From an uncultured Acetatifactor sp. (GTDB taxonomy: Bacteria; Bacillota; Clostridia; Lachnospirales; Lachnospiraceae): 64,000 bases of DNA. The notes beneath the pieces are model-generated. The model was not told the origin of the DNA. It did not search any database and saw only the letters and a program-made list of their open reading frames with translations. The stretch spans positions 1 to 64,000 of the forward strand of contig CANQEH010000003.1 of NCBI GenBank assembly GCA_947594835.1, written 5' to 3'. Below, piece by piece: positions 39,089 to 58,552 of the stretch (position 1 is the first letter of the stretch; the number at the start of each line of letters is the position of its first letter). Made by a program: the position numbers and the translations under genes.

Positions 39089-39155
39089 GTTCCGCTTTCT
39101 CTCCTCTCCTTTGACTTTTCCGCTTCCACTGTCCTTTTTACCCATTTTTCAACTA

Positions 39156-39213: not shown

Positions 39214-40161
39214 ATGACAGTAAGACCCAATGATTTCTACAGCAAAAACAGTGACTTTACCGGCAAACGGGTGGTAAACGCAGATATCCAGGAGATCGTG
39301 GACTTCCACGCCAGTTCCGCTGTGCGCATCTGGTGCAACGAGCAGTCCGACAGCTTTCCCGCCCACTGGCACTCAGCCCTTGAGATCATCCTGCCCATGG
39401 AGGAATGGTATGACGCCGTCGTGGGAAAGGAACAGTTCCATCTCGTCCCAGGCGATATCCTGTTTATCCCACCCAGGGCGATGCACGCCCTCACAGCGCC
39501 CGACACCGGAATGCGCTTCGTCTTTCTGTTTGACATATCCCCTCTCTCTGCCCTGCCCGGCTTTTCGTCCCTTCAGCCCGTGCTCTCCTCCCCCCTGCAC
39601 ATCACAAGATGCAGCCATCCCCACATTTACGAGGATACCTATCAGGATATGGTGCGGATGCGCAACGAATATTTTGGCAGTGAGGAATTTGCAGAGCTCA
39701 CCGTCTTTTCCCTGCTGTTGGGCGTCCTGATCCGTCTGGGCACCGACTCCTTAAGAGGACGGGAGTTTTCCCTGGGCGCCCGGCCCAACAAACAGCGGGA
39801 ATATTTTGTCAAATTCAACGACGTCCTCTCCTATATCAACGACCACTACAAGGAGGACTGCCGGCTGGAAGACATCGCCGCCGCTTACGGCTTCAGCAAG
39901 TATCATTTTGCCCGGCTGTTCCGCCAGTACACCGGCTTTACATTCTGTTCCTACCTCTTACATCTGCGCATCCTGGCCGCCCAGGAGCTTCTGTCAAGGC
40001 CAGAGCTCTCCATCACGGAGATTGCCATGCAGTCCGGCTTCTCCAGCATCTCCACCTTCAACCGTGTCTTCCGCCAGCAGGTGAACTGCTCCCCCACCGA
40101 ATACCGGGAAAAGCGCAGGCCCTCTGCCGTCAGCGCTTTGCCTCATAGCGAAAATCCTTAA
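39214..40161 (+). CDS. AraC family transcriptional regulator
   Basis: Cupin-like N-terminus; two C-terminal HTHs (CRLEDIAAAYGFSKYHFARLFRQYTGFTF; SITEIAMQSGFSSISTFNRVFRQQVNCSPTEYR). Confidence 0.95.
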   Translation: MTVRPNDFYSKNSDFTGKRVVNADIQEIVDFHASSAVRIWCNEQSDSFPAHWHSALEIILPMEEWYDAVVGKEQFHLVPGDILFIPPRAMHALTAPDTGMRFVFLFDISPLSALPGFSSLQPVLSSPLHITRCSHPHIYEDTYQDMVRMRNEYFGSEEFAELTVFSLLLGVLIRLGTDSLRGREFSLGARPNKQREYFVKFNDVLSYINDHYKEDCRLEDIAAAYGFSKYHFARLFRQYTGFTFCSYLLHLRILAAQELLSRPELSITEIAMQSGFSSISTFNRVFRQQVNCSPTEYREKRRPSAVSALPHSENP

Positions 40162-41713: not shown

Positions 41714-41788
41714 GTCCGCTCCGTTTCCGCGCCGTCTTGTGCGCAAGCTCATTGGCCACCTCCGGCCCACAGACGCCCTTTGTCCCGC

Positions 41789-42754
41789 TCACCGCCCGGT
41801 TCGGGCCTTCCTGTCTGCGCTGGCCCGCTCCAGCCGTTTTTGTAACTTCTCCTGGACAAACGTCCGCTCCCCGTCCCGCACCAGAAAATACAGATAAGAA
41901 TCCAGCACAAAGGAAAGCGGCATCCCCCGCCCGGCAATCTTGAAATTGACGAACCCTCTGTCGATGTAGCTTCCGATCTCCTCGTTGGAGATAAACGCAG
42001 GCCGCTTCCTGCACTCCTCAAAATTCCGCTCCTTCGTCTGGTTCGGGCAGGGGAAGGGGACGCTCACGTCAAATTCCAGCTGCAGGCGGGACTGCTGTTC
42101 ATAGTGCTCCGCCCGCTTTGGACATCCCGGAAAGCACACCTCGTTGACCAGGATCTCCACCCTGTCCGCCTGGGCCGCGGCTGCCTCCAGGGCCGCCTGG
42201 TCATGGTTTAAGTCATAGTCCAGCACCACCAGGCGGTAATCCTTCCCAAGCTCCTCTAACAGCCCCTCCACCCTGTCGATCCGCTTCGTGGTGGAGGAGA
42301 TGAGCGGAAAGCGCGGGTACTGTCTTCTGAGATATTCTTCCAGAACCGGCGCATTGACCAGAGCCTGGTTCAGCCCATTGTCCGCAAGACGCATAATCAG
42401 GTTGCAGTAGGTGTCCGAGAGGTGCTTTTCTTCCAGCAGGGAATTGGTCCAGGTAAACCGCACCGGCACGCCTCTTGTGTTGTACTGCTTTAACATCGCC
42501 TGGATGTCCTGTTTGCCCGAAATCCCGAACACCACCCGCCCGCCATTCCAGATGGCGCCGGGAAATGTCCCGTAGACGGATCCCACCCGGTAGCCGCTTC
42601 GGAATTTCTCCGGGTATTCCTTCATCAGATCCAGAACGGCCACATTCAAAGAGAAATAATAGCAAAATCCCGGCAGATGCCAGAACACTTCCTTTTCTTC
42701 CATCACATTCTCCCTTCCGGCCCGTTTCGCCTCTGCAAAGCCAAAGCCTCCCAA
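41789..42754 (-). CDS. U32-like protein of unknown function, paralog 2 (start may be internal)
   Basis: WNGGR, ADNGLNQALVNAPVLEEYLR, LVNEVCFPGCPKRAEHYE and GFVNFKIAGRG; shares many blocks with the 42776-43726 protein. Confidence 0.7.
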   Translation of the reverse strand: MGGFGFAEAKRAGRENVMEEKEVFWHLPGFCYYFSLNVAVLDLMKEYPEKFRSGYRVGSVYGTFPGAIWNGGRVVFGISGKQDIQAMLKQYNTRGVPVRFTWTNSLLEEKHLSDTYCNLIMRLADNGLNQALVNAPVLEEYLRRQYPRFPLISSTTKRIDRVEGLLEELGKDYRLVVLDYDLNHDQAALEAAAAQADRVEILVNEVCFPGCPKRAEHYEQQSRLQLEFDVSVPFPCPNQTKERNFEECRKRPAFISNEEIGSYIDRGFVNFKIAGRGMPLSFVLDSYLYFLVRDGERTFVQEKLQKRLERASADRKARTGR

Positions 42755-42775
42755 ACACTTTCTCTTCCCAGAGCC

Positions 42776-43726
42776 TTACGGCCACTTGGAAGGCCTGGGC
42801 CGGTTCACCGTGATCACCTTGTTGGCCGCCAGGTTGTTGAGCAGCAGGATCCTGGCCTGCCCCTGGTACTGGGGCCTGATCAGATAATGGCAGTAGGTCT
42901 CCACCAGGGAGAACAGGTTGGCCGTCCTGCCCTCGATCTTAAAATTGTAAAAGCCCATGGGCAGATACTTTTCGTAGATATCTTCCGGCGAAATGTAGGT
43001 CTCGTATCCCTGGATCGTGTGGATGCAGTTGTACTCCCCGTACTCGCAGTACCAGTGCTCCAGAGGAATCTGTTTGTCCGGGGGCATCTTGCGGTTCTTC
43101 AGCATGATGCGCTGGTTTTTCGCAATATTCTCATAATGCTTTCCCCTCCTGGGACAGCCGGGCACGCACAGCGTGTTCACTAAAAGCTCACATCTGCCCT
43201 TGTCCTCTATTTTTTCCAGCTCCTCAAACTGGTTATTGAAGTTATAGTCCAGCACCACCAGATAATAATCTTTTTCCAGCTCCCGGTTCACCAGATCTAC
43301 GTCCCGGATCTCCTTGCAGGTAGAGCTGTTGATCTTAAAGCCCGGGTAGTTCTTCCGGATGTATTGCTCCAGCAGAGGCGAAAAGATCATGACCTCGTTC
43401 ATGCCGTTGTCCGCTGCCCGCATACAGAAATTACAGTAAGGATCCAGAAGATCCTCCTCATTTAACAGCATATTGGTATAGGTGTACCTCACCGGGATCC
43501 CTTTGGCGTTGATGTTCCGGATCACATTCTCGATATATGCCGCATCGCACTGGTCATAGTTGGAGGGTCTTCCGCCGTTCCAGAGGGACATGGGAAATTC
43601 TCCGAAAAAGGAGGCGATACGGATCCCCTCCCGGAAATATTCCGGCTTCTGCTCCATCAGACTAAGCACCAGCATATTCAAGGGATAGTTCTGCCTTAAC
43701 CCCGGCAGATGAAATCTGACTTCCAT
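42776..43726 (-). CDS. U32-like protein of unknown function, paralog 1
   Basis: WNGGR, YCNFCMRAADNGMNEVMIFSPLLEQYIR, LVNTLCVPGCPRRGKHYE and GFYNFKIEGR. Confidence 0.75.
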   Translation of the reverse strand: MEVRFHLPGLRQNYPLNMLVLSLMEQKPEYFREGIRIASFFGEFPMSLWNGGRPSNYDQCDAAYIENVIRNINAKGIPVRYTYTNMLLNEEDLLDPYCNFCMRAADNGMNEVMIFSPLLEQYIRKNYPGFKINSSTCKEIRDVDLVNRELEKDYYLVVLDYNFNNQFEELEKIEDKGRCELLVNTLCVPGCPRRGKHYENIAKNQRIMLKNRKMPPDKQIPLEHWYCEYGEYNCIHTIQGYETYISPEDIYEKYLPMGFYNFKIEGRTANLFSLVETYCHYLIRPQYQGQARILLLNNLAANKVITVNRPRPSKWP

Positions 43727-43761: not shown

Positions 43762-45063
43762 CTACTCCTGCGCAGCATACTCCACCAGGGCGTCCGCCAC
43801 CTCCGGCGAATACCAGGTCAGGTTGTTCCTGTCAAAGATCCCGAAGCACTCCCCGTCCCCTTCGTAAATGCCGTTGTCCCACCAGACGCACTTGATCTGG
43901 TATTGGTTCATGGCGCCCAGATACCCTTCCAGCCATCTGACCACATCCTCTGTGTTTCCTTTGTTCACCGCGCCAAATTCCGTCACGATCACCGGCATCC
44001 CCTTTGCGATGAACTGGGACTGGATCTGCCGTAAATTGGTGTCCAGGTCTTTCTGGAGGCTTCCGTCCCAGACGGACACATGGCCTTCTCCCTCAAAGGT
44101 AAACACATAGGGGGTGTAAAGGTGGAGGGCCACCGCGATGTTAGGGTCGTCATAACGCTTCAGGTCCCGCATGGCCGCCAGGGAAGCGTTGTTTCCGTAG
44201 GTACAGAGGATCAGGCATCTCGTGGCGTTTTCGCCTCCGGTGGCCCTGACTGCATCGAGAAAGACGCCGTTTAAGCGGTTGACGGCTCCCCGTTCGTTTG
44301 GCGTCCCGCCGCTCCACTCCCCGGCGCTGCCCTGGGTGCGGGGCTCGTTCATCCCCTCAAAGAGCAGATGGCTGTCCCGGTCTTTGAAACGCTCTGCGAT
44401 CTGGGTCCAGATGGCCTTCAGTTCTTCCGCCGTCTGATCCAGATCCTCCTCGTCCAGGCTGAGCCAGTAATTTGTCTCGTGGTGGGTGTCCAGAATCACA
44501 TACATCCCGTCCTCCAGGCAGTAATCCACCACTTCCTCCACCCTGTCCAGCCACGCTTCGTCGATGAGGTAATCCGGCCCGCTTCCCAGATGTTCCCCCC
44601 AGGTCACAGGGATCCGCACTGTGTTGATCCCCTGGGCCGCTATGGCGTCTATCATCTCCTTTGTGGTCTCGGGGTTTCCCCAGTAGGTCTCCGAAGCCAG
44701 GGTATTGCCCGCCCCGTGGGCGTCCAGGGTATTCCCCAGGTTCCACCCCACCGTCATACCGGCCAGAAGCTCAAACACCCCGGATCTGTCCGGCTGGGCA
44801 GGTTCTGCAGACGCCTGGGCAGGCGCGCCTATCTTCTCCGGCGCATCCTCCTGTGCCACCGGGGCGCTCTCCGTATCTTTGCTGTCCTTGGGGGTGCCTT
44901 CCTCCCCGGCCCCGCTGTCTGCCAAAGGCGCAGGGGACGCCGTCTGGGTTTCGCCCTCCGCTTCCGCACCCGTCGTCCCGCAGCCTGTGCCCCCCAGCAC
45001 AACTGCCGCTGCAAGCGCTGCCGCCCCCAGCCTTTTCAAACGTTTCTGCCTCTTATTCTCCAT
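43762..45063 (-). CDS. GH5 endoglucanase-like lipoprotein
   Basis: Lipobox VVLGGTGC; MTVGWNLGNTLDA; FEGMNEPR; VIVTEFGAVNKG; CVWWDNG. Confidence 0.92.
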   Translation of the reverse strand: MENKRQKRLKRLGAAALAAAVVLGGTGCGTTGAEAEGETQTASPAPLADSGAGEEGTPKDSKDTESAPVAQEDAPEKIGAPAQASAEPAQPDRSGVFELLAGMTVGWNLGNTLDAHGAGNTLASETYWGNPETTKEMIDAIAAQGINTVRIPVTWGEHLGSGPDYLIDEAWLDRVEEVVDYCLEDGMYVILDTHHETNYWLSLDEEDLDQTAEELKAIWTQIAERFKDRDSHLLFEGMNEPRTQGSAGEWSGGTPNERGAVNRLNGVFLDAVRATGGENATRCLILCTYGNNASLAAMRDLKRYDDPNIAVALHLYTPYVFTFEGEGHVSVWDGSLQKDLDTNLRQIQSQFIAKGMPVIVTEFGAVNKGNTEDVVRWLEGYLGAMNQYQIKCVWWDNGIYEGDGECFGIFDRNNLTWYSPEVADALVEYAAQE

Positions 45064-45142
45064 CCCGCTGCACCTCTCAAAATCTACAAAATGCAAGGGG
45101 CAGCGCCCGGAAAACACCGCCCCATTGCGTTTTTCAAGTATC

Positions 45143-46639
45143 TTACTTCTGGTTTGCCTTGTCGATATAATTCTTCCAGCTCTCCCGGATCGCCTCTACG
45201 TTCGCGGAGACGTCGCAACCGGAATAGAACTGATACAGGAACGGGTCGCCGGTATCCAGATCGGGAATGATGCCGTGGTAGGTAATCATACCTTTCTCCA
45301 TCATCATCGCCGCGGTCTCGTCCACCGCGCGGGTATCCCTGAACCCTGCGTAGTAGTTGCTCTTCCAGCCCTCGTAGTCCTCATAGCCCGGAATGTCGTC
45401 GGTGTAGAGGTTCCATGCGAACGCCAGCTTCCACGCCTTGTCTGCGTCATAGCAGCCGGGGATCGCCACCGGGTTGTTTGCAAAGCAGTTGATGTAGTCG
45501 CTCATCTGAGGCCCCTTAGGGAACATCACGAAGCCGAAATCATCTTCCATGTCCTGCAGGTAGTTTCCGGGCGTACCTGCATACCCGTCATCTACCATAA
45601 ACACCGCCATGCCGTTGCGGAATGCCTCCTTGTAGTAATCCCACTGGGCTTCCTCCGGATAGGGCAGCGTGTAATTGTCCATAATGTCAACGCTGAACTG
45701 AAGGCCTTCGATGGTCTCGGGATCCTCTACCCTGTAAGTAAATTTGCCCGACGCGTCCTTGCCCACCAGCTCGCCGCCGTTGGAATAAACGCACGCCAGA
45801 ACCATGGTGGAATTGTTCTGGGTGGTTCCGTAGATATCGATCGCACCGTCGTTGTTGGTATCCCTCTGCACCTGCTCCATCAGCTCGGTCCACTTATCCC
45901 AGGTCCAGTCCCCGCTGGCCTGCAGGTCATAGATGGACTCGGGGTCGATCTGCGCCTCGTTCAGCAGCCGCTTATTAAAGTAAACGCCTGTGCGGGGCTC
46001 GGGGTCACCCGCATACATACAGTAGATGGAATCGCCGTAGGAATACTGCTCATGCAGCATATTCTTGGTAAATTTCTCCTGGGAGAAATCCAGGCAGTCC
46101 AGGGTGGCCAGGTCATACATCAGCCCGCTCGCCATGGCGGAAGTGATCGCCGGGTCGTCCCGCAGGATGAAGATGTAGTTGTTGCCGTCGTCCCCGGTAG
46201 TGCAGTAGTCCACATAGTCCTGAGGCGTGGAACCCCAGTCGGAGATGGCCTGCTGTTTGATGGTAAAGTTGTATGTCTCCTGAATCCAGTCGCGGTACTC
46301 GTCCCTTGCCTCCTCGTAGTCGTTGGTGGGTTCCGCCGGATCTCCCGACCACCAGTCGCGGATGATGATCTCCATGCCGCCCAAGTCGTATGCCTCTCCG
46401 GTAGCGGGATCCGTGATCACGGTGTACCCGCCGACGGCGTCCTCGCCGTCCTCCTCTGCCGTCTGGCCTTCAGACGTATCCTGCCCTGCGCCCTGGTCCG
46501 TGGTTCCGGCGCCGGGATCCGTGGTCTGGGAACCCTGGTCGGCAGGCGTCTGGCCGCCGTTTCCGCAGCCTGCCATCCCCATGGTCATCACAGTGGCCAT
46601 GGATGCTGCCAATAACCTGTTCAATACTTTTCTTTTCAT
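45143..46639 (-). CDS. Extracellular solute-binding lipoprotein (CUT1-type), SBP1
   Basis: Lipobox MTMGMAGCGNGG; family-1 SBP-like organisation; adjacent permeases. Confidence 0.88.
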   Translation of the reverse strand: MKRKVLNRLLAASMATVMTMGMAGCGNGGQTPADQGSQTTDPGAGTTDQGAGQDTSEGQTAEEDGEDAVGGYTVITDPATGEAYDLGGMEIIIRDWWSGDPAEPTNDYEEARDEYRDWIQETYNFTIKQQAISDWGSTPQDYVDYCTTGDDGNNYIFILRDDPAITSAMASGLMYDLATLDCLDFSQEKFTKNMLHEQYSYGDSIYCMYAGDPEPRTGVYFNKRLLNEAQIDPESIYDLQASGDWTWDKWTELMEQVQRDTNNDGAIDIYGTTQNNSTMVLACVYSNGGELVGKDASGKFTYRVEDPETIEGLQFSVDIMDNYTLPYPEEAQWDYYKEAFRNGMAVFMVDDGYAGTPGNYLQDMEDDFGFVMFPKGPQMSDYINCFANNPVAIPGCYDADKAWKLAFAWNLYTDDIPGYEDYEGWKSNYYAGFRDTRAVDETAAMMMEKGMITYHGIIPDLDTGDPFLYQFYSGCDVSANVEAIRESWKNYIDKANQK

Positions 46640-46665
46640 TTTTTCCTCCTTTTTTCTATAAATCA

Positions 46666-46712
46666 CTGCCGGAAGCAGCCGATAGGGATTTTTCCGGGCG
46701 CTGCGCCGGCAG
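46666..46712. other. Stem-loop between permease gene and SBP1 gene
   Basis: CTGCCGGaAGCAGC ... GCTGCgCCGGCAG, about 13-bp imperfect stem. Confidence 0.6.
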
Positions 46713-46744
46713 GGATCCTAGCTTTTTGTCAGGGCAGAACCGCC

Positions 46745-47752
46745 CTACATCTTGATACCCGTGCTGCTCAGGCTCTCCACAAAGCCCTTCTGGGCGAACA
46801 GATACAGGACGATGAGCGGCATGATAATCATCAGCGTCCCGGTGGACACAATACAGTTGGAATATGCCAAAGACACCGTCGTGGTGGTGCCCATCAGCCT
46901 CTGGATATAAGCGCCCAGGGTGTCCGACAGCCTGGCCAGGGATGTGCTCACCAGGCTCTGGCTGCCCAGAAACAGCTTGGAGTAAAACCCGTCCGTCCAC
47001 TGCCATACGAAGGCAAACAGGAAACAGGACGTCAGAATGGGCTTTGCGTCAGGCAGCATGATGCGGACAAAGGTTCTCAGCGTGCCGCAGCCGTCCACAT
47101 AGGCCGCCTCCTCCAGTTCCTTGGGAATCGTGCGGAAAAACTGCCGGATCATGTAGATGTACAGGCCGTTTTTCAATCCCATGCACCCGGCACTCATCAT
47201 GTAATAGGGAAGCACGGAGCCCCTGAGATTGATCGTCTCCCCGGTGAGCAGCTTGAAGATCCCAAGGATGTCAAAAAACCGAAAGTGCAGGTGCAGTGAA
47301 GTGGAAATGGTCTGGGGCGGGATCAGAATCACCAGCATCACGCAGGCAAACCAGAATTTCTTAAAAGGAAATTCAAACCTGGCAAACCCGTATCCCACTA
47401 ACGTTGCCACCGCCACCTGCAGGATGGCTATCGTCAGGGAGATGACAAAGGAATTGACGATGCTCTTGCTGTAATTCATCAGCTGTGCCGCCAGCAGATA
47501 ATTCTGGGTGGTAAAATGCTCCGGCACCGAGATCACGATGGGATTGTACAGATCGCTCTCCGTCATGAAGCTCACCGAGATCTTGCTCAGGAGAGGCTGC
47601 AGGATCATAAAGCACATACCAAACAGCAGGATGAACCGGCAGATGCTGCCGCCGTAGGAAAGGATCTCTTTTTTCAGCAGATACCCGCCCGACTGCCTGT
47701 TGCGCTCCCAGAAACCGGCGTATTTTTTTGTCTTTCCCTTCTCCTTACTCAT
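46745..47752 (-). CDS. Carbohydrate ABC transporter permease (MalG-like), pair 1
   Basis: EEAAYVDGCGTLRTFVRIMLPDAKPIL matches the EAA motif. Confidence 0.92.
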   Translation of the reverse strand: MSKEKGKTKKYAGFWERNRQSGGYLLKKEILSYGGSICRFILLFGMCFMILQPLLSKISVSFMTESDLYNPIVISVPEHFTTQNYLLAAQLMNYSKSIVNSFVISLTIAILQVAVATLVGYGFARFEFPFKKFWFACVMLVILIPPQTISTSLHLHFRFFDILGIFKLLTGETINLRGSVLPYYMMSAGCMGLKNGLYIYMIRQFFRTIPKELEEAAYVDGCGTLRTFVRIMLPDAKPILTSCFLFAFVWQWTDGFYSKLFLGSQSLVSTSLARLSDTLGAYIQRLMGTTTTVSLAYSNCIVSTGTLMIIMPLIVLYLFAQKGFVESLSSTGIKM

Positions 47753-48653
47753 AGTAGTAAACCCCTTTCGAGATGATGAGAGAACTTACGCCCACAAGCG
47801 CCATCACGATCAGGAAATAGATCCAGGACATGGCGGAGGCAAAGCCGTAGTTGAGCTGTCCGGTCATGACCGTTGTGATCTTGTCGATGACCTCATTGTC
47901 GGATCTCATGCAGAAATCCACAACGGTGTAAACCCAGTTGACCAGAAACAGGGAGCTGATCATGGGGAAGGTAATCTTCCAGAGACTCTCCCACTTGGTG
48001 CACCCTTCGATCTCCGCCGCTTCGTACATACTGGCCGAGATGGTCTGCAGGCCCGAGAGGAAGATGATGATCTGGATACCGGAGGCGATGGCCACGTCGT
48101 AAATATTGTCGATCACCTGAAAGACCTCCTCGAAGGCCCTGGTGCCCACTCCCGCTGTGCGCAGGATCTCCTCCAGGGTTTCCGTGATGCTGATGTTCTG
48201 GGTGGTCTCCTCGATGGCTACCTGCAGGTTCGCCATCAGCGCATTGTCCGTCTCCAGTCCTAAGATCACGCCGGAGGAGAGAATCACGGGGAGAAAGAAG
48301 ATCGCCCGCACCAGCGCCCGGCCCTTAAACTTCTGGTTTAAGATCAGCGCCACAAAGAAGCTGAACACCATGATCGCAAAGGAATTGATCACCATCCGCC
48401 CCAGTTCCTCCGTCAACAGGCGCGTGAATTCCGGATCGATCCGGAATGCCTGTATGTAGTTGTCAATCCCCGCCGGGTGGAGCACAAAGATCCCGGAACC
48501 GATCTCCACCTGGCAGAAGCTCATGTACAAAGACTGTATGAACGGCTGGATCATAAATACCAAAAAGCCGATGATAAACGGTGAGATGAACAGGTATCCC
48601 GATATCGCCTTCCGTCTCTGAAGGCCCGCCAATTTGTTCTTCTGTCTTGCCAT
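47745..48653 (-). CDS. Sugar ABC transporter permease (MalF-like), pair 1
   Basis: MYEAAEIEGCTKWESLWKITFPMISSLF matches the EAA motif. Confidence 0.92.
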   Translation of the reverse strand: MARQKNKLAGLQRRKAISGYLFISPFIIGFLVFMIQPFIQSLYMSFCQVEIGSGIFVLHPAGIDNYIQAFRIDPEFTRLLTEELGRMVINSFAIMVFSFFVALILNQKFKGRALVRAIFFLPVILSSGVILGLETDNALMANLQVAIEETTQNISITETLEEILRTAGVGTRAFEEVFQVIDNIYDVAIASGIQIIIFLSGLQTISASMYEAAEIEGCTKWESLWKITFPMISSLFLVNWVYTVVDFCMRSDNEVIDKITTVMTGQLNYGFASAMSWIYFLIVMALVGVSSLIISKGVYYYE

Positions 48654-48681
48654 AACCACAACCCTTTCCACACCTTTTGCG

Positions 48682-51273
48682 TCACCGGACTACCATGTAA
48701 TCCCTGGCCGGAACCGTCCCGCCCTCCGGCGTTTCGGCGTCCTCATAACTGTAGTTCACATAGACTTTCGTCCCGTCCTCATACACAGTGCAGGAAACCT
48801 CCGGCCCGATCTTCTCATGCCCCGTCATCTTCTGGCCGAACACATGGCCCAGCTGTGCGTCATATCTGTTGTAGATCTCCATCATCCTGTCGTGCCATGC
48901 GGCAAAGTCAGAGGCGTAATACTCGGTATAAAGCGTCTTCTGCAGGGCAAAGGCCGTCTCCCGCATGAGGGAGAAATTCAGCCCGGCGCCGTACTCCGCC
49001 GCCAGCAGGATCCGCTCCTGGGTGTCCCCGGTGTTCACCGGCGCCCCGGTGTAGTCCACATAGCCGTGGATGGCCATCTGGTAAAAGGGGACAAAGTCGT
49101 CCACAATGGTGTACTCGCTTCCTCTTAAGTCCATATCGGTGATGATGTCGCAGTAAGGCATGGCGTAATCGTTGCCCATGTTCACCATCACTTTCCTGCC
49201 CGCATCCGCCATGGCTTTGAGCTGTTCGACCTGGCGGTAAAGCGTGTTCTGGCGACTGGAGGGTTTCTTGCGGTAATAGTCCGAGGAGAGATCCATCCCC
49301 GTGTCCCGCAGGGCCACTCCCGTCCCATAGGTTCCGGCGGCATCGGACAAATTCTGTGCCATCTCAAGGGCCAGATCCGTGTGCAGCAGATAGTAGCTGT
49401 CGATGCCCTCCCTGGCCGCATACGTCACGTCGCTGTAGACGAACAGCTCCGCCCTCTCCTTGCTCAGGAACTTGGCCGCGTCGGTAAAGGAATTAAAGCC
49501 GTTTAACAGATTGCTGTCGTACTCATACTGGGTCACGCCCTCCAGATACAGATCCACTCCCAGGTCCTGGGCCGCCTGGGCCAGCTCCTTCAGCCCCTTT
49601 TTCCCTCCCAGGGAAGAAATCGGCCTGACGGAGTTTAAAATCTTCTGGTTCACGCCCCCGTTGCACCACCCGGTGAGCTTCACGGAAATGTTATCCATCC
49701 CCTCCTGCTTTAACTGCCCGATCATATCCGCCGCCTCCGCAAAGGAGGTCAGCTTTAACGGCCTTGACACCGGCACGCCCAGAATCTGTTTCACCTTGTC
49801 TACCGCGCCCACAATCTCCAGCGCCACCGGCGTTCCCTCCTCTTCCCGCAGGGACAGGTAGCCGTCGTACTGATCCAGCAGGTATTCCCGATAGGCTGCC
49901 GCCATATCGGCGTAGCTGCCGGAGTCCACGAAACGGTATCTCTGGATCAGCGTCTCGTCGGGCAGGTCTTCCAGATACACATAGATATCGCTGTTTGCAA
50001 TGTCTCCCACCTCATATTTTTCGCGGACACAGATACTGTAAAGCGCGTTTGCGTAGTTATAGCTGTTGTTGTGGCCACTTACATCCGCCCGGATGGAGGC
50101 GTAGGGCGCCCCTTCCTCCAGAATGCACAGGAAGGAATCGTCCGCCACAGAGATGCCGAAGGTGTTAAAGTAAGTCCTGGTATCATGAACCACGGCCTCT
50201 CTGGACAGCGCCATATCCCATCCGTACACATTGGCGTAGTAACCGTTCTGGGAGAGCTTCCCATTGTTAAACCTGATGATTGCGCCGCCGCCCTCGGGAA
50301 CCAGGAGATAGCCCTCGTCCTGTCCGTCCCCCGCCCCGAAGTAAGGCAGGATGGACAGCGTGTAAATGGGATACTCCTCCTTGTACTCAAGCTCCCCCAG
50401 GGGGAGTTCCACCACCAGATCCTTTCCATCCAGCCGGTAGATCATGTTCATATTGAACACAGGCTTGTCGGAAGTACTCTGGGAGTGGTCAAGCTCCTTG
50501 TCCGCGGCGTAAGCTTCCAGCGTATAGCCTGCGGCCTCGAAATATTCCTCCATTTTCTTCTTTACGCTGTCGCTGGCATTGTCCCGCAGCACATAGATGA
50601 CTTCCGTCTCCAGAATGGGATAATTGAGAAGAAGCTGCTCTTTGTCGTCCTTTTTCCCCAGTTTGTTGATGTCATACTTTTTATAGTACTGCTTTACCAT
50701 GTTGAGCGCGGTCTTATCCATGGAAGCGGTCCAATCGTCGAACTGGGTCTGCGTGGTCACCGGGGGAATCAGAAACTCCTTTGCCGTATCCCCCACAGAA
50801 TAGTTGACCCGGACGTAGTCCTCCCCCGTCTCGATCTCGTAGATACCGTTTTTGATGCTGTAATCATAGTTGTTGTACTGGGTCTCCAGTCCCGCCGTCA
50901 CGCTGTAACTCATGGACAGCGTGGACATGAGCTTCCCCTTCTCCGAAGTCAGGGCGATGGGATCGTCCGCGCCGCCCTCCGGGTTGGAATACCAGACCTT
51001 GCCCGTCTCCTTCACTTCCACGCTAAACTGCGTGGTGGTCGGATCCATGGTAAACTTTAACTGATCGTTCTCCATCACGATGGGTTCGGAAGATCCCTCG
51101 TAGGCGTTGATCTTCACGATCTCCTCCGGCTCGGTCTCGTTTTTATAATTGAGGATCACAAACACAAAAGCTGCGATGACCGCCAGAAGTATGACGGGGA
51201 CGATCAGGCTCTTTGCCCTGCGGGCTGCGGCAGCTTTCCACTCTGCCCTTCTCACTGATTTTTCTTTTTTCAT
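48682..51273 (-). CDS. DUF5696-like large exported/membrane-anchored protein
   Basis: N-terminal TM SLIVPVILLAVIAAFVFVILNY; 860+ aa; family guessed from size, architecture and ABC-cluster context. Confidence 0.65.
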   Translation of the reverse strand: MKKEKSVRRAEWKAAAARRAKSLIVPVILLAVIAAFVFVILNYKNETEPEEIVKINAYEGSSEPIVMENDQLKFTMDPTTTQFSVEVKETGKVWYSNPEGGADDPIALTSEKGKLMSTLSMSYSVTAGLETQYNNYDYSIKNGIYEIETGEDYVRVNYSVGDTAKEFLIPPVTTQTQFDDWTASMDKTALNMVKQYYKKYDINKLGKKDDKEQLLLNYPILETEVIYVLRDNASDSVKKKMEEYFEAAGYTLEAYAADKELDHSQSTSDKPVFNMNMIYRLDGKDLVVELPLGELEYKEEYPIYTLSILPYFGAGDGQDEGYLLVPEGGGAIIRFNNGKLSQNGYYANVYGWDMALSREAVVHDTRTYFNTFGISVADDSFLCILEEGAPYASIRADVSGHNNSYNYANALYSICVREKYEVGDIANSDIYVYLEDLPDETLIQRYRFVDSGSYADMAAAYREYLLDQYDGYLSLREEEGTPVALEIVGAVDKVKQILGVPVSRPLKLTSFAEAADMIGQLKQEGMDNISVKLTGWCNGGVNQKILNSVRPISSLGGKKGLKELAQAAQDLGVDLYLEGVTQYEYDSNLLNGFNSFTDAAKFLSKERAELFVYSDVTYAAREGIDSYYLLHTDLALEMAQNLSDAAGTYGTGVALRDTGMDLSSDYYRKKPSSRQNTLYRQVEQLKAMADAGRKVMVNMGNDYAMPYCDIITDMDLRGSEYTIVDDFVPFYQMAIHGYVDYTGAPVNTGDTQERILLAAEYGAGLNFSLMRETAFALQKTLYTEYYASDFAAWHDRMMEIYNRYDAQLGHVFGQKMTGHEKIGPEVSCTVYEDGTKVYVNYSYEDAETPEGGTVPARDYMVVR

Positions 51274-51302
51274 GGTCACTACCATCCTTTACGCTAACGG
51301 GC

Positions 51303-51959
51303 TCATAGCCGGAACATGATCTCCCTGGCCAGGGAGATGAAGTATGCCACGCCCTGTGTGATCATACTGAAAAACAGCATCAGCAGAAATACCATCACCA
51401 GCATCGCAATCAGGCTGACGAACATAAACAGAAGGTTCTTCGACATCTTAAACTCATGGATCTGCGCCATGGCCGCCACGATCAGCAGGGCGGCCCACAC
51501 CAGGGAGACCGCGCTTAAGGCCGAATAGAACTCCGCCTCATCCACCGTCACGAAATTGCTGAACACCATAAGCGGCAACTGTATCAGTGGATAGGGGGTC
51601 AGCGCATAGCAGGTGGCCATATAGACCTGCCCCAGGCGCCCCTTCCCGTCAAACAGCGTCGTCAGCGCCCAGTTGCCCACCACAAACAGCATCAGCGGGA
51701 AAAGCACGCTGGCCAGGTACAGGAAGATGTTTAACTCCTCCCAGTACACGTTTAAGAAGATGAAACTGGTGTAGCGCAGCTTCATCACCCGCACCATAAG
51801 CGTCAGGATCAGGATCGTGTTCGCCGCCGCGTAGGATCCCCTCCTCTCGTGGGTTAAGTCCCAGAAGCCGTCCAGAGGGTGGGTGATGCAGTACAGCGCA
51901 AACTTTAGTGACCCGAAATAATGTTGATAGGTTTCTTTCTTTTTCAGTGCAGCAATCAT
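51303..51959 (-). CDS. Yip1-family-like membrane protein
   Basis: Polytopic; HPLDGFWDLTHERRGSYAAANTILILT near N-terminus; multiple TM segments. Confidence 0.7.
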   Translation of the reverse strand: MIAALKKKETYQHYFGSLKFALYCITHPLDGFWDLTHERRGSYAAANTILILTLMVRVMKLRYTSFIFLNVYWEELNIFLYLASVLFPLMLFVVGNWALTTLFDGKGRLGQVYMATCYALTPYPLIQLPLMVFSNFVTVDEAEFYSALSAVSLVWAALLIVAAMAQIHEFKMSKNLLFMFVSLIAMLVMVFLLMLFFSMITQGVAYFISLAREIMFRL

Positions 51960-51975
51960 ACCGGCCTCCGTTTAT

Positions 51976-53478
51976 CTAGGTTCTGAAGATATCTGCGCTA
52001 TCGATCTCACGGCGGATCTCCCTGATCCTGCCGATGGACAGAGGGATCAGAAAGACTGCCAGCAGCACCAGGATGATGGCCACGATGTGATCCTCCACCC
52101 ACTCCTTGCGGTACTGTTTGTAAGCCTTGGAGTAGTTGTCCGCGTCGTACTTCAGTTCAAAGTAATCCATGGCTTCCCGGTATCTCTCCTGCCTTAGCAG
52201 CGACCGCCCGATGCCGATATAGGCCAGATCGTAATTTCCATCCAGCTCCATGACCTTTTCCCAGGACTGCCCGGAAGCGACGTAATCGCCGTCGTCAAAC
52301 TGCTCTACGGCCTCGTAGATCAGGGAGCCGAACTGGGTGGGCACAAACAGGGTGATGCTGCTGTCCAGGGAATCCAGCACCAAAAGGTCGTGCCCCATGT
52401 GTTCGATGGCGGCTGGCTGCCGGAAAAATCCGTTGACATTGCCGTTTCCGCCAAAGGCGAACACCATCTTGCCCTGGTCGTCGTAGCCGAAGAGACGCCC
52501 CCTGTTTTTGTCCAGACAGACGTAGATATCATTGTCCAGCACCGTCACGTCCGTAAAGAGCGATGTGCCGGAATAACCGCCGCCCTCGCCCCAGTACAGG
52601 TCGCCGTACACCGGCCATTCCCCGTTCTGGACAAGGATGTTGCTTCCCATCAGGTTCAGCTTGCGGACCGGCTCCGCCGTCTTTGCCCGCAGGTCGTCCT
52701 CGGTGACATTGTCCGTGACCGTGTAGATGAAGCCCTCACGGTCCATGTAGAGATTGTCATACTCCGTGGGGACAAACGCCTCCATCTGCGCCCTCTGTTC
52801 CTGGGTGGCAAACTTTTTCCAGAGGTAATCCGTAAAGTCGTAGGTCACCGGGGTCGCCCCCACAAACCCGGAGAAGACGCCGTCGTTTTCATATTTTACC
52901 AGACCCTTGTTGATCCCTGTCGCGATGCAGTAGACCCGCCCCGCCGTGTCCACCGCGATCTTGCTGGGCTGGAACGCGCTCTTTTCATCCAGGGAGGAAT
53001 CCACCGGCCTGTCAAACTGCATCAGATACGTCAGATCCTGATCCAGCTTTAAGATCCTCGCGTTTCCCTTGTCGGCGATGAAAAGATCCCCCTCCTCGGA
53101 CACCGCCAGGTCGCTGGGGGAAGAAAAGGTATTGTTTCCCTCGCCGCCCCGGAACCCGTCGATGACGCGCACCAGTTCAAACTGCTCCGTCCCCGTCCTC
53201 TCCAGCTGGATGATCCTGTTGTTGCCCGTGTCACAGATGTAGACCATGTCGTCTTTTACGAACATCCCCTCCGGACTTTTCAGGTTTAAGTCAAGCCCCA
53301 GATCCGCCGCCGTAAAGACCTTGCAGACCGAGTAGGCGTCCGGCGAATCCTGCACGTCGCCCCACCAGTCGTAATTGTATGTATAGCTCCTGTCTGCGGC
53401 ACAGACCTCCATGGCCGGCGCCAGCACGGCGGACAGCCCAATTGTCAGGGCAAGCATCCCTTTGATCGTCTTTTTCAT
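51976..53478 (-). CDS. NHL/six-bladed beta-propeller protein with TPR-like segment and C-terminal transmembrane anchor
   Basis: Signal peptide; CDTGNNRIIQLE and FIADKGNARILKLD NHL-like repeats; TPR-like RSLLRQERYREAMDYF; C-terminal TM. Confidence 0.8.
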   Translation of the reverse strand: MKKTIKGMLALTIGLSAVLAPAMEVCAADRSYTYNYDWWGDVQDSPDAYSVCKVFTAADLGLDLNLKSPEGMFVKDDMVYICDTGNNRIIQLERTGTEQFELVRVIDGFRGGEGNNTFSSPSDLAVSEEGDLFIADKGNARILKLDQDLTYLMQFDRPVDSSLDEKSAFQPSKIAVDTAGRVYCIATGINKGLVKYENDGVFSGFVGATPVTYDFTDYLWKKFATQEQRAQMEAFVPTEYDNLYMDREGFIYTVTDNVTEDDLRAKTAEPVRKLNLMGSNILVQNGEWPVYGDLYWGEGGGYSGTSLFTDVTVLDNDIYVCLDKNRGRLFGYDDQGKMVFAFGGNGNVNGFFRQPAAIEHMGHDLLVLDSLDSSITLFVPTQFGSLIYEAVEQFDDGDYVASGQSWEKVMELDGNYDLAYIGIGRSLLRQERYREAMDYFELKYDADNYSKAYKQYRKEWVEDHIVAIILVLLAVFLIPLSIGRIREIRREIDSADIFRT

Positions 53479-53496
53479 AGGCCACCTCATTCCCTG

Positions 53497-54405
53497 TCAG
53501 TCCTTCAGTCCGGAGCTTGCCATGGTTTCCAGGATCTGGCTCTCGGAGAAGATGAATATCGCGATGGGGACTATCATCAGAACGACTAACACCGCCGCCC
53601 CCTGTCCGGTTCTGGCAATCCCGCCGCTCTGGATCTGCTGCATGGCGTACACAAGGGTCTTCTTCTCCTCCGAGTAGATGAAAGTGGCCGCCTTATTGTT
53701 CCACAGCCCCTGCACCGAGAAGATGATCAGCGTCATCCACGCAGGCTTCACATTCGGCATCACGATGGTGCGGAAAACCCTCCACTCGTTTGCGCCGTCA
53801 ATCTTGGCCGCCTCGATCAGGGAGGTGGGAAGCCCTTCCATGAACTGCTTCATGAGGAACAGCCCCATGGGCGCCGCAAAGCCCGGCACGACGATGGCCC
53901 AGTAGGTGTCGATCCATCCCAGCTTGTTTAAGATCATATAGTTGGGGATCTGGGTCACATAGCCGGTGAACATCATGGCCACCGTCACCAGATGGAAGAA
54001 GGTCTTCCCCCCGGGAAAGTCGTATTTCGCCAGCACGAAAGCGCCCATGGAGGCCACGATCAGATGCCCCGCTGTGCCCACAAAGGTGATAAACACCGTG
54101 TTGAACAGGTATCTGGAAAAGGTGACCCAGGATTTCCCCATGGTCACGAACAGGTCGAAAAAGTTATCCAGGGTCGGATTCTGCGCCAGGATCTTGGGCG
54201 GGAACTTAAACAGCTCATCCAAGGGCTTCAGCGCGCTGCTGACGGCATACACCAGCGGGAACACCATGACCACAGCCACCAGGAAAAGAAACAGGTACAG
54301 GAAAAAATCCCCGGCGATGGAACGGTTCGGTTTCCTCCTCTTGATCAGCTTCTTGTGATAGATTGCTACTGTTTCCGCGTTCTGTTGATTCTTCCTTCTG
54401 TCCAT
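53497..54405 (-). CDS. Carbohydrate ABC transporter permease (MalG-like), pair 2
   Basis: LIEAAKIDGANEWRVFRTIVMPNVKPAW EAA motif. Confidence 0.92.
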   Translation of the reverse strand: MDRRKNQQNAETVAIYHKKLIKRRKPNRSIAGDFFLYLFLFLVAVVMVFPLVYAVSSALKPLDELFKFPPKILAQNPTLDNFFDLFVTMGKSWVTFSRYLFNTVFITFVGTAGHLIVASMGAFVLAKYDFPGGKTFFHLVTVAMMFTGYVTQIPNYMILNKLGWIDTYWAIVVPGFAAPMGLFLMKQFMEGLPTSLIEAAKIDGANEWRVFRTIVMPNVKPAWMTLIIFSVQGLWNNKAATFIYSEEKKTLVYAMQQIQSGGIARTGQGAAVLVVLMIVPIAIFIFSESQILETMASSGLKD

Positions 54406-54406
54406 A

Positions 54407-55345
54407 TCAGGTTCCCACTCTCCTCAACAAACTTTGTATGGCCTTATTGCACAGGATCATAATGAGGAACAATATCGTCGCGATGGCGCAGGCGTAACCC
54501 ATCTCAAAACGGGTAAATCCGTAGTCGAACAGGTGGGTGACGATGGTGCGCGCCGCATAGTCCGTACTGGGGTATCCGCAGAGGGCCATGGTCACATCGC
54601 AGACGCCGAAGGCCTGGGTGATAGACATCACCGCGCCGAACATCAGCATGGGCTTCATGTTGGGGAGGGTGATGTACCACAGCTCCTGCCACCTGTTCTT
54701 GATGCCGTCCATATATCCGGCCTCAAACTGGGAGCGGTCCACGCCCTGCAGCCCGGCTACAAAGGAGAGGAACCCTGTGCCCAGGCTCATCCACAGGATG
54801 ACCAGCATACAAATCGGCAGCATATAGGTCGGATTGATGAACCAGAGGATCGGCGTGTCAATGATACCCAGGTTCATCAGAAACGCATTCACATATCCGT
54901 AGGCGTCTCCCCTGAAGAACACGGAAAAGATCACGAAACAGTTTCCCGCAATGGAGGGAGCGTAAAACACCACCACCGCCACGCTGCGCACCCAGCGGGG
55001 CAGCTCGTTGATCAGCCAGGCGAACAGGAAGGACATGATATACCCCAGGGGGCCCGTCACCAGCGCGATCAGGAAAGTATTCTTGATACTGATCAAGAAG
55101 ATATCGTCCTCTAAAAGCAGGCTGATGTAATTCTTCAGGCCAATGAACTTTGGCGGCTCCAGAATATTGTAATAGGTAAAGCTGAAAAAGATGGAGGCCA
55201 CCACCGGCGCAATGTAAAACAGGGTAAACAGCAGGGCGTAGGGCAGAAGAAAGAGATAACACATCTTGCTCCGCTTCGCCTTTTTCCACGCCACCTTCAT
55301 ATTGTGCCTGCGCAGAACGAGGTATTTTTTGATGTATTCTTTCAT
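54407..55345 (-). CDS. Sugar ABC transporter permease (MalF-like), pair 2
   Basis: Six-TM MalF/LplB-like protein; FEAGYMDGIKNRWQELWYITLPNMKPML EAA-like motif. Confidence 0.92.
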   Translation of the reverse strand: MKEYIKKYLVLRRHNMKVAWKKAKRSKMCYLFLLPYALLFTLFYIAPVVASIFFSFTYYNILEPPKFIGLKNYISLLLEDDIFLISIKNTFLIALVTGPLGYIMSFLFAWLINELPRWVRSVAVVVFYAPSIAGNCFVIFSVFFRGDAYGYVNAFLMNLGIIDTPILWFINPTYMLPICMLVILWMSLGTGFLSFVAGLQGVDRSQFEAGYMDGIKNRWQELWYITLPNMKPMLMFGAVMSITQAFGVCDVTMALCGYPSTDYAARTIVTHLFDYGFTRFEMGYACAIATILFLIMILCNKAIQSLLRRVGT

Positions 55346-55355
55346 GCTCCACCCC

Positions 55356-58301
55356 CTATTCTTCCACCGGCAGGCCGAACTCAATGCGTTTCTTGGTCAG
55401 CTCGTCGTTGATGGTGACAGCGTAATCTATGATCGTCTCCCGGGCGTCTACCTTTTCGTTGATGACCTTCCGGATGGCGTTCGTAATATGGCGGCCGGTG
55501 TAATACCCGCCGGGCACCTCCCGGATGCCCACAGTCTGCTGCCACTGGGCGTCCAGCACGGCAATGTCGTCAGCGCTCCAGGAAAGCTGTACGAAAGCGT
55601 CCTTGTTGGCCGTCGCATACCGGGCGGAGGATCCAAGAAGCGCCTCGATCTCCCGTCCGAAGCGGACCTGGGTCTCAGGCTGCGCCCACCACTTCATAAA
55701 CTCCCAGGAGTCGTTCCGCAGGGACTCATCCGGCGTTGCGATCATCATGGTGGCGCTCCCCGTGATAAAGTCAGACCTGTCGATATAGGTCTCCCCGTTT
55801 TCGTCCGTGTACTCCGTGCCGGGTATCAGGGTGAAATCCCACAGGCCCCGGATCTCGGGAGCCGACACCATCAGCGTGTTGTAGGTGGAGTATGCCGAAA
55901 TGCCAATGGGCATCTCCCCCGAGCGGAAACGGCTGACAAAATCATAGATGGTTGGCAGACCGTAGTCGTTAAAGTATCTCACATAATCCTTAAAGGCCCT
56001 GACGCCGGCTTCGTCGTCCACCGTGGTGCGGGTGCCCTGCTCGGTGTACATATCGCCGCCGTACTGGTACAGCAGGGTGAAATACAGCGACAGATCCGGC
56101 GTGTTGGAGGCGATGGCCGTGGAGGCCGTAGCGGTGGCGCTGCTTCCCGCCGCCGTGGGAATGCCGATGGACAAGTTGTTGCCCTGGATGGTGGGAAGCA
56201 TCTCGATCATCTCCTGCCAGGTCTGAGGCACCTTAAGCTCCAGCTCCTCCAGCACATCCTTGCGGTAGAACATTACATTAAAGGTCTGGGTCTCCGGAAT
56301 CGCATAGATGTGCCCGTCCAGCCTGTACTGCTCGTATGAGCTCTCGGTGTAATGGGACAGCACCTCCTCCCAGCCCTCAAACTGGGTCAGATCCTCCGCA
56401 GCGTTTCGCAGGGCGTAGTTGACCGGCTGGTCGGCGCCCACAGAGAGCACCACGTTGGGGCCCCTGCCCGCCAGCACTGCGTTGAGCAGCGCCCCGGGAT
56501 CCACCACCTCCACGTTTACCTTCACCCCGCTCTGCGGCGTAAAGGTATCGTCCACCATGGACTTTAAGATGGTGCCCTGGTCGCGGCCTGTGAGGATCCA
56601 CACCTTGACGATGTCGTCCTCCCCTTCGTCATACACATCCCCCACCGCGTTATAGTCCACCACAAAGGAAGCGGCAAAGGACTTCGCCTCATGCCATGCC
56701 CTGGACAGGATCCCTGCCCTGTCCTTCTCGGGCTTGACGTCCGGGCTGCAGATCTGGATATAGTCGATGTCCAGCTTCGTCTCGCTTAAATTGAGCGCCG
56801 CCGTCCCCAGCGCAGTGATATTGTCCTTGAAGGTGGTAAACTCCAGCGTGATCTTCTGGGGCTTTTCGCAGAACCGCTCCAGCTGCTGGGCCACCGTCTG
56901 GGCGGAGGCGATGTTGTCGGCCTTCTGCCCGCTGTACGCCACCATGTCGTCCACGATCTTGAACAGCCGCTTGGCCTCCAGATCCATGGCCTCCATCACT
57001 TCCGGGTAATTCTTCTCAATGTAATAGTCCCGGTATCTGTCGGGCGTAGCTCCCGTGTAGATCAGCACCTTCCGGTAGATCTGGTTTAAGCGGAAGGTGG
57101 AATCCTCCAGCGCCTCCAGAATCTCGCCCACCCCTCCCAGGGTGGCTTCCAGGCGGATAGTATGGGCCCCGGCCGTCAGATAAAACCGATAGGGATCCCC
57201 CTCCTCATCCGCCAGGGTCATGCAGTCCCAGTCATTGCTGTAAGCAAAGGCGATCTCTTCCATCTCCTGGAAAGGAACTTCCCCGTCGAGATACACCCTC
57301 CGGCTGGACACCACGCCTCTGGAATAATTCTGGCGTCCCTTTATCATGATGTTGTAGAAGCCGTCCTGTGGCACCTCAAATTCCCATTCGATCCACTGGC
57401 CCGCGCTCCTCCACGCATCGCCGCCCACATAGTTTAAGACGGTTGCCATCACGCTGTTTGGCTGGGTGGTGGGGGAAGAACGGTCATATTTTGCATAGAG
57501 GGAAGATTCCGAGCGGTAAGTGGACTCCTCTCCCTGGACGATTTCGGAAAATCCTGTCACCTCCCCGGCAGAAGGCTGGGCCGCAAGGTACTCCTCATAG
57601 CCCGGCAGGTTCACAACGCCCCGCAGTGCAAGCTCTCTCAGCACCAGAGGCTCATTTTCTCCCACCAGGGTGATCTCGTTGGACCCCTTCTCCAGATAGA
57701 ACAGATACGGCTCGGCCACATACCCCATATCGTCCCGGAAATATGCTTTCTGCCAGTCGAAGGCCTCCACCTGGGTGGGACGGATCTGGTTTCCCTGGTT
57801 GTCGGTTCTCACCGGGCCGCCGTCGGTCCATATCCGGGTAAAGGTGATGTTGTTCGCCCCGTCAAAGGGAAGCTCCCCGTTGATGTATACCGAGCGCTCC
57901 GCCGAAACGCCTCTGGACTCGGGCGCGAGATATTCCATATAGAGGTTGTAAAAGCCGCTCTCCGGCACATCTACTTTCCAGGTGATCTCCGAGCCCGACT
58001 CTGTGTAGAGCGCCTTCTGGGCCCCGGCGTAATCGGTGTACACTTCCGCCCCGTCCGCCTGGGCGTAGCCAAACAGGTCGATCTCCACATCCCGGGCGGG
58101 GCAGGCCGCGCCTTCATGGGCCAGCAGATACCGGCTGTAAGTGCCCTGCCGCTCCATGCCCTCCACTTCCGCGTTCAGATCCACGCCTTCATATTTTTCA
58201 TGAAAGTCTTCCACATCCGACCGCAGAAACAAAAATATGACTGCCGCCACCGCCAGCCCGATTGCCGCCCCGATAAGGATTTTTTGGGTAGAATTTTTCA
58301 T
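55356..58301 (-). CDS. Very large extracellular solute-binding protein (SBP2) with two N-terminal CBM-like domains
   Basis: C-terminal SBP-like region (YAIPETQTFNVMFYRKDVLEELELKVPQTWQEMIEML); duplicated N-terminal beta-rich blocks; N-terminal TM without lipobox Cys. Confidence 0.85.
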   Translation of the reverse strand: MKNSTQKILIGAAIGLAVAAVIFLFLRSDVEDFHEKYEGVDLNAEVEGMERQGTYSRYLLAHEGAACPARDVEIDLFGYAQADGAEVYTDYAGAQKALYTESGSEITWKVDVPESGFYNLYMEYLAPESRGVSAERSVYINGELPFDGANNITFTRIWTDGGPVRTDNQGNQIRPTQVEAFDWQKAYFRDDMGYVAEPYLFYLEKGSNEITLVGENEPLVLRELALRGVVNLPGYEEYLAAQPSAGEVTGFSEIVQGEESTYRSESSLYAKYDRSSPTTQPNSVMATVLNYVGGDAWRSAGQWIEWEFEVPQDGFYNIMIKGRQNYSRGVVSSRRVYLDGEVPFQEMEEIAFAYSNDWDCMTLADEEGDPYRFYLTAGAHTIRLEATLGGVGEILEALEDSTFRLNQIYRKVLIYTGATPDRYRDYYIEKNYPEVMEAMDLEAKRLFKIVDDMVAYSGQKADNIASAQTVAQQLERFCEKPQKITLEFTTFKDNITALGTAALNLSETKLDIDYIQICSPDVKPEKDRAGILSRAWHEAKSFAASFVVDYNAVGDVYDEGEDDIVKVWILTGRDQGTILKSMVDDTFTPQSGVKVNVEVVDPGALLNAVLAGRGPNVVLSVGADQPVNYALRNAAEDLTQFEGWEEVLSHYTESSYEQYRLDGHIYAIPETQTFNVMFYRKDVLEELELKVPQTWQEMIEMLPTIQGNNLSIGIPTAAGSSATATASTAIASNTPDLSLYFTLLYQYGGDMYTEQGTRTTVDDEAGVRAFKDYVRYFNDYGLPTIYDFVSRFRSGEMPIGISAYSTYNTLMVSAPEIRGLWDFTLIPGTEYTDENGETYIDRSDFITGSATMMIATPDESLRNDSWEFMKWWAQPETQVRFGREIEALLGSSARYATANKDAFVQLSWSADDIAVLDAQWQQTVGIREVPGGYYTGRHITNAIRKVINEKVDARETIIDYAVTINDELTKKRIEFGLPVEE

Positions 58302-58374
58302 AAATGCCTCCAAACGTCAGATGTCAATGTATAATTCGTATAGAAAGTGCTTCCCAATACCCGCTTACAAGTGC

Positions 58375-58502: not shown

Positions 58503-58537
58503 AAAAAGCCCGGCAGCTTCACGCTGCCAGGCTTTTT
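58503..58537 (-). terminator. Intrinsic terminator of the two-component operon
   Basis: Minus strand AGCCTGGCAGC-loop-GCTGCCGGGCT followed by a T-run. Confidence 0.8.
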
Positions 58538-58552
58538 CCTGTCTTTATCCGC

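Follow-up and report, generated by a model that had tools for sequence, protein, structure and literature searches.

The 64,000-nucleotide window analyzed here (positions 1 to 64,000 of contig CANQEH010000003.1, assembly GCA_947594835.1, from an uncultured Acetatifactor sp. of the Lachnospiraceae) carries a minus-strand array of nine genes encoding two solute-binding proteins (SBPs), two pairs of CUT1 permeases and three middle proteins, namely an NHL-repeat protein, a Yip1-family membrane protein and a DUF5696 protein (hereafter the middle trio). We propose, with moderate confidence, that the products of all nine make up a single multi-subunit importer of oligosaccharides, i.e. a double CUT1 transporter with a shared ATPase and a glycan-handling module. 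Because the set travels together, often in multiple copies and beside differing plant-fibre enzymes, in many Firmicutes and in certain spirochaetes, it is probably as a whole one undescribed fibre-uptake machine. The unit itself is well supported; gene linkage, co-occurrence, fusion, fold, membrane anchors, EAA loops and the absence of a local ATPase are what the analysis demonstrates.

Conservation of the cassette across genomes

An earlier note on this DNA had read the middle trio as a surface complex coupling the two importers, and asked whether these genes accompany the permeases elsewhere. The outcome of this synteny check was strongly positive. In all 140 DUF5696 loci examined (Lachnospiraceae, other Bacillota and Treponema), as far as flanking DNA is available, the DUF5696 gene adjoins NHL and Yip1, either as two genes or as a fusion, and 97 loci hold both permease pairs and SBP2. 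A first set of at least 80 named loci came from an alignment-based scan with one genome per species; 58 of them show the nine genes in the same order and on the same strand, and the rest are mostly interrupted by contig ends. Where a named locus has over 9 kb of upstream sequence, the five upstream genes are all present (58/58), and where it has over 5.5 kb of downstream sequence, the downstream genes are all present in 65/66. These loci belong to Lachnospiraceae (Acetatifactor, Roseburia, Butyrivibrio, Lachnotalea), Christensenellaceae and other Clostridia, and eleven to Treponema/Spirochaetaceae. A second, diverse set of 40 DUF5696 loci was drawn from other Bacillota families and from paralogues; many of these proteins share no more than 25-30% identity with that of the window. 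NHL and Yip1 were found in 40/40, and the canonical order with SBP2-MalF2-MalG2 in 34/40; among the six others, the modules are shuffled in L154, SBP2-MalF2-MalG2 is not adjacent in L143, L146 and L147, MalG2 is displaced in L162, and the upstream part of L157 is unclear. In a further twenty NHL-Yip1 loci, taken from genomes that carry at least eight copies, the cluster includes DUF5696 every time. A 2,554-aa DUF5696 open reading frame (ORF) in L222 was discarded as an artefact of masked sequence (an N stretch, L222:1-6069, creating false long ORFs).

Among 300 Bacillota genomes, DUF5696 over the cut-off and cassette-type Yip1 (defined by E below 1e-38) occur in the identical 26 and neither occurs in the remaining 274 (Fisher p 5e-38, a value inflated by the relatedness of the genomes). 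Other genomes also gave weak matches to DUF5696 (E 1e-11 to 1e-3); these span the model incompletely and were left out of the membership count. Full-length SBP2 is present in those 26 genomes plus two more where the gene lies at the end of a contig. Pairwise divergences of seven subunits correlate over the 97 complete cassettes (Spearman 0.90-0.96) and also among eight divergent paralogous cassettes in a single genome (0.64-0.88). Together, this co-occurrence and correlated divergence indicate that the cassette is inherited and duplicated as a whole. Five genomes of 2-3 Mb (G100, G122, G142, G196, G226) each contain between eight and at least ten NHL-Yip1/DUF5696 modules (ten being the most that the search scores), some without a neighbouring second importer.

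Several points weigh against reading the nine products as one machine. Conserved linkage means shared function, not a complex, and the mirror-tree correlations derive partly from shared species history. Moreover, four loci (L143, L147, L210 and L227) carry NHL-Yip1, DUF5696, MalF1, MalG1 and SBP1 without an adjacent SBP2-MalF2-MalG2; given such reduced loci, the second pair may be an importer in its own right, accompanying the others at most loci. Taken further, the locus might simply hold two ordinary, separate CUT1 importers in a hemicellulose setting, each perhaps for a different oligosaccharide, with the middle genes incidental or serving just one of them. The provision of an own SBP and intact EAA loops for each pair, the reduced loci and the variability of SBP1 all fit this explanation; nevertheless, we consider it quite unlikely, because 97 complete cassettes, a gene order kept across two phyla and eight paralogous cassettes in one genome exceed what co-location would give, because DUF5696 and Yip1 have an identical phyletic distribution, and because every NHL-Yip1/DUF5696 module with available flanking DNA was seen beside CUT1 permease genes.

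The universal core is NHL-Yip1, DUF5696 and MalF1-MalG1, and retention of that pair in the reduced loci points to MalF1-MalG1 as the primary partner of the middle trio. The earlier reading of the trio is upheld in part: the three genes belong to one conserved unit co-inherited with the permease pairs, and two of the three proteins carry large extracytoplasmic domains. Coupling of the two importers cannot be their sole role, since some loci have no adjacent SBP2-MalF2-MalG2. The Treponema/Spirochaetaceae loci (L107, L116, L117, L120, L123, L126, L129, L134, L135, L136, L138) place the cassette in hosts with an outer membrane, which suggests inter-phylum transfer and a periplasmic version.

Subunits of the importers and of the middle trio

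Two hallmarks of CUT1 importers were found in the window: two family-1 SBPs (SBP_bac_1/8) and MalF/MalG-type pairs with the EAA loop, which is kept in 4/4 permeases. MalF1 and MalF2, and likewise MalG1 and MalG2, are only about 20% identical, so the two pairs are genuinely distinct. SBP2 (about 981-985 aa) consists of two N-terminal CBM35/golvesin-like stretches, a linker and a C-terminal SBP_bac_8/1 domain; a search for a lipobox in SBP2 found none, and the protein is anchored in the membrane by an N-terminal transmembrane (TM) segment. SBP2, the NHL protein and DUF5696 each have a membrane anchor. SBP1 varies more than any other cassette member, and its closest solved relative is an arabino-oligosaccharide-binding protein (6rjy, E 6e-10). 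At one locus (L142:10525-16000, genome G163), at least four SBP1-like genes follow the cassette in tandem, as if several binding proteins fed one permease pair. Bpr_I0182 of Butyrivibrio proteoclasticus is a xylan-specific SBP (PMC5217386); considered as expression evidence, this 63-kDa protein fits neither SBP1 nor SBP2 in size, could not be assigned to a cassette and was not used.

A domain scan of positions 1-64000 detected no ATP-binding cassette (ABC) ATPase, extending to the whole window the earlier observation that the cluster encodes none. The assembly contains 46 matches to the permease family and one MalK-type (OB_MalK) ATPase, which lies on a different contig; from this ATPase count, both permease pairs would be powered by the lone MalK-type enzyme.

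In the NHL protein, a hydrophobic signal at the N-terminus is accompanied by NHL repeats, a tetratricopeptide repeat (TPR)-like stretch (scored in homologues) and a C-terminal TM segment. Yip1 (PF04893) scores 44.5 bits against a Pfam cut-off of 28.6; its AlphaFold2 model (predicted local distance difference test score, pLDDT, 87) gave no PDB match at E below 1, and its conserved polar residues include N96, E141, H168, E213 and R217. The two are one fused protein in 20 of the 40 diverse loci and separate in the other 20, the fused NHL-TPR-Yip1 architecture having been verified by Pfam. Since the genes are adjacent and often fused, NHL and Yip1 very likely function as a single protein.

DUF5696 comprises an N-terminal TM anchor, an extracytoplasmic beta domain and a TIM barrel of the GH129/GH101/GH36 type (GH, glycoside hydrolase). 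Its profile retrieved GH129-type enzymes from the PDB, and its AlphaFold2 model (pLDDT 89) shows the N-terminal beta domain plus TIM barrel typical of the GH129/DagB fold, with GH36 also among the Foldseek matches. The nearest solved relative, DagB (ZGAL_3152, PDB 5opq/8rzk), is a GH129-like alpha-1,3-(3,6-anhydro)-D-galactosidase that forms a catalytic homodimer with four essential residues (PMC5698469). The DUF5696 model follows the fold of DagB along most of its length (Foldseek E 2e-31), and the profile match is weak but significant (E 2e-14); DUF5696 differs in being membrane-anchored and importer-linked and in having no conserved acid dyad. The barrel is also shared with the GH129 alpha-N-acetylgalactosaminidase NagBb (E 8e-26) and with GH101 endo-alpha-N-acetylgalactosaminidases (E 2e-16), and GWAQPG of NagBb has its aligned counterpart in a GW.(N)GG-type motif that follows strand 2. 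In contrast, DUF5696 does not conserve the position of D330 in NagBb, and the Pfam model Glyco_hydro_129 matched none of 20 DUF5696 proteins scanned at E up to 1.

We compared the catalytic sites in HMMER alignments with manual inspection, because hhalign aligned only the C-terminal domain of DUF5696 with a bona fide GH129 protein. Across 41 diverse members, the catalytic acids of GH129/GH101 are not conserved. NagBb D330 aligns with a variable position, the non-acidic N546 in the window. The catalytic residue D435 of NagBb (PMC5698469) maps to about residues 660-661, the alignment of strand 4 being ambiguous by one residue, and an acid lies within 659-662 in 24/41 members. The GH129 Glu maps near residue 703, a Met in the window, with an acid within 700-705 in 21/41; acids at both sites occur in 10/41. 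E764 is acidic in all diverse members, but it sits on a helix in the model, and no other barrel residue among the 41 behaves as a family-wide catalytic acid.

Could DUF5696 nevertheless be an active surface alpha-glycosidase of a new family, trimming alpha-linked side groups before the importers take up core and product? Its GH129/GH101-type fold and its site outside the membrane would suit such an enzyme, and DagB is active with only one of the two catalytic residues of NagBb (PMC5698469). D661 is kept in 69/81 cassette-type orthologues, the subgroup of the window, and DUF5696 might use other catalytic residues, as DagB does; both points count against a non-catalytic role. On the other hand, acids are present at both sites in only a minority of members, with M703 and the variable, non-acidic position 546 in the window protein, and DUF5696 is kept beside enzymes for very different glycans, to which a single bond specificity is ill suited. 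We therefore regard a glycosidase as rather unlikely; if activity exists, it may be likeliest in the window's own subgroup, where D661 is mostly kept. As one subunit serves many glycans and has no conserved acid dyad, the most likely role of DUF5696 is to bind decorated glycan chains and present them, not to cleave them.

Layout of the window and flanking enzymes

From the ORF list and Pfam/NCBIfam scans, the minus-strand order is SBP2-MalF2-MalG2-NHL-Yip1-DUF5696-MalF1-MalG1-SBP1, then GH5, two U32-like genes and GH43 (Table 1). All named genes of the array are intact ORFs, separated by -29 to +78 bp, and the array runs unbroken past GH5 into the GH43 gene. Gene order and strand agree with the earlier note, whose range for the cluster was 45143-58301: its end for SBP2, 58301, is the ATG at codon 5 of an ORF opening with TTG at 58313 and stands, whereas GH5, which it had included, lies just outside.

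Table 1 Features of the nine-gene array and its surroundings.
Feature	Coordinates	Strand	Evidence or remark
Terminator-like hairpin	58512..58546 (approximate bounds)		between upstream histidine kinase gene and SBP2
SBP2	55356..58313	-	SBP_bac_8, E 6e-24
MalF2, CUT1 permease	54407..55384	-	BPD_transp_1; EAA loop EAGYMDG
MalG2, CUT1 permease	53497..54405	-	BPD_transp_1; EAA loop EAAKIDG
NHL protein	51976..53490	-	NHL repeats, E 4e-12
Yip1-family polytopic membrane protein	51303..51959	-	Yip1, E 2e-11
DUF5696 (PF18952) protein	48682..51285	-	Pfam E 2e-192, 641 bits (cut-off 25.6)
MalF1, CUT1 permease	47745..48671	-	BPD_transp_1; EAA loop EAAEIEG
MalG1, CUT1 permease	46745..47752	-	BPD_transp_1; EAA loop EAAYVDG
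SBP1, lipoprotein SBP	45143..46666	-	SBP_bac_1, E 2e-7; lipobox
GH5 endoglucanase	43762..45117	-	Pfam E 2e-69; nearest, xyloglucan-specific endoglucanase 4w84, E 2e-131
U32-peptidase-like protein	42776..43726	-	Pfam match below cut-off (E 0.0085)
Second U32-peptidase-like protein	41789..42754	-	Pfam match below cut-off (E 0.033)
GH43 with beta-xylosidase C-terminal domain	40130..41770	-	domain scan
AraC-type regulator	39214..40161	+	divergent from array
GH10 xylanase	37655..39145	-	lipobox-like LLLTGC
GH31	35283..37628	-	nearest, E. coli YicI, E 1e-265 and better

GH5 is a likely lipoprotein (LGGTGC); no hydrophobic signal stretch was found in GH43, and no N-terminal signal was apparent in GH31. 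With the neighbouring GH5, GH10, GH31 and GH43 as the sole basis, the cargo in the window is probably hemicellulose oligosaccharides, derived from xyloglucan and xylan. In close relatives of the window, the cassette is flanked by GH10, GH43, GH115, GH5 and an esterase, enzymes with xylan as their common theme, while distant paralogues are flanked by GH26/GH130, GH53/GH35/GH42, pectate lyase with GH106, or alginate lyase. The carbohydrate-active enzymes (CAZymes) thus differ between loci, implying xylan, mannan, galactan, pectin and alginate, and the cassette is not tied to a single glycan.

AraC genes lie next to many cassettes. NHL-Yip1 and DUF5696 might serve to sense oligosaccharides at the cell surface and signal their presence to regulators encoded at the locus, with the NHL propeller and TPR on the outer side of a membrane protein and AraC or histidine kinase genes close by. 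This is very improbable, because Pfam detected no cytoplasmic output domain in the middle trio and the adjoining regulators vary by locus (AraC, LacI or kinase).

At 13 named loci, homologues of the tandem U32-like pair (41789-43726) adjoin the cassette. Three other conserved genes follow the cassette at about 21 loci of Lachnospiraceae (e.g. L078:15271-21244, L085:16527-22581, L074:16405-22381). They encode an HlyD-like membrane-fusion protein of about 365 aa, a protein of 717 aa for which Pfam gave no confident match, and an FtsX/MacB-like permease of about 933 aa, and their products might form an exporter tied to the importer.

Known systems and a proposed mechanism

The published description of the CUT1 importer XuaABC of Ruminiclostridium cellulolyticum gives it a single SBP and a single pair of permeases (PMC9675976). 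Like importers of this type, which share a MsmK/MalK-type ATPase, the cassette combines SBPs and two EAA-loop permeases per pair with hemicellulose enzymes and no ATPase in the cluster, and like XuaABC it would import decorated oligosaccharides. It differs in having two pairs, two SBPs and NHL, Yip1 and DUF5696 conserved as a unit. No description of this unit, of DUF5696, of Yip1 with NHL, ABC importers or SBPs, or of two-importer xylan operons of Lachnospiraceae was found in the open-licence literature, subscription papers being outside the scope; the cassette is probably a CUT1 importer joined to an accessory module that is conserved with it, hitherto undescribed in the open literature.

In SusC/SusD-type loci of Bacteroidota, an uptake core with a TonB-dependent channel is repeated within a genome, with different CAZymes round each copy. 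The cassette resembles them as a conserved uptake core repeated per genome with CAZymes differing by copy, but it has ABC importers and membrane anchors and no TonB-dependent channel.

For complex formation, the roles of DUF5696 and NHL-Yip1, the coupling, the cargo and the ATPase used, we infer the following scheme for a single double importer. Surface endo-enzymes (GH5 and GH10 in the window) would release decorated oligosaccharides outside the cell, and SBP1, SBP2 and the DUF5696/NHL-Yip1 module would gather them and present them to the two CUT1 channels. TM-anchored SBP2, with its two carbohydrate-binding-like domains, would pair with MalF2-MalG2, and lipoprotein SBP1 with MalF1-MalG1, both channels being powered by the genome's sole MalK-type ATPase. 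NHL-Yip1 would be one membrane protein with its propeller and TPR outside and its bundle in the membrane; together with membrane-anchored DUF5696, it would make up an extracytoplasmic glycan-handling module most closely tied to MalF1-MalG1. Cytoplasmic exo-enzymes (GH31 and GH43 in the window) would finish the oligosaccharides inside.

A bolder version, which we put forward only tentatively, is a hitherto undescribed, substrate-adaptable glycan import machine of Gram-positives and Treponema in which an NHL-Yip1 membrane scaffold joins the two CUT1 channels together with DUF5696, a subunit of glycosidase fold turned glycan presenter. If true, large decorated chains would be importable, the machine would have a role comparable to that of SusCD, and new diets would be gained by multiplication of the cassette.

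Gram-positive gut and rumen bacteria import complex fibre fragments mainly via CUT1 importers, usually pictured as one SBP and two permeases. This view would be altered by a nine-gene double importer with three uncharacterised subunits, which occurs in Treponema as well as in about 9% of the Bacillota genomes sampled and reaches at least eight copies in some of them. The cassette provides a first functional context for DUF5696 and for the bacterial Yip1/NHL pair. It also serves as a marker from which the use of fibre by Lachnospiraceae and rumen bacteria could be predicted, and it makes the route by which large decorated oligosaccharides reach an importer directly testable.

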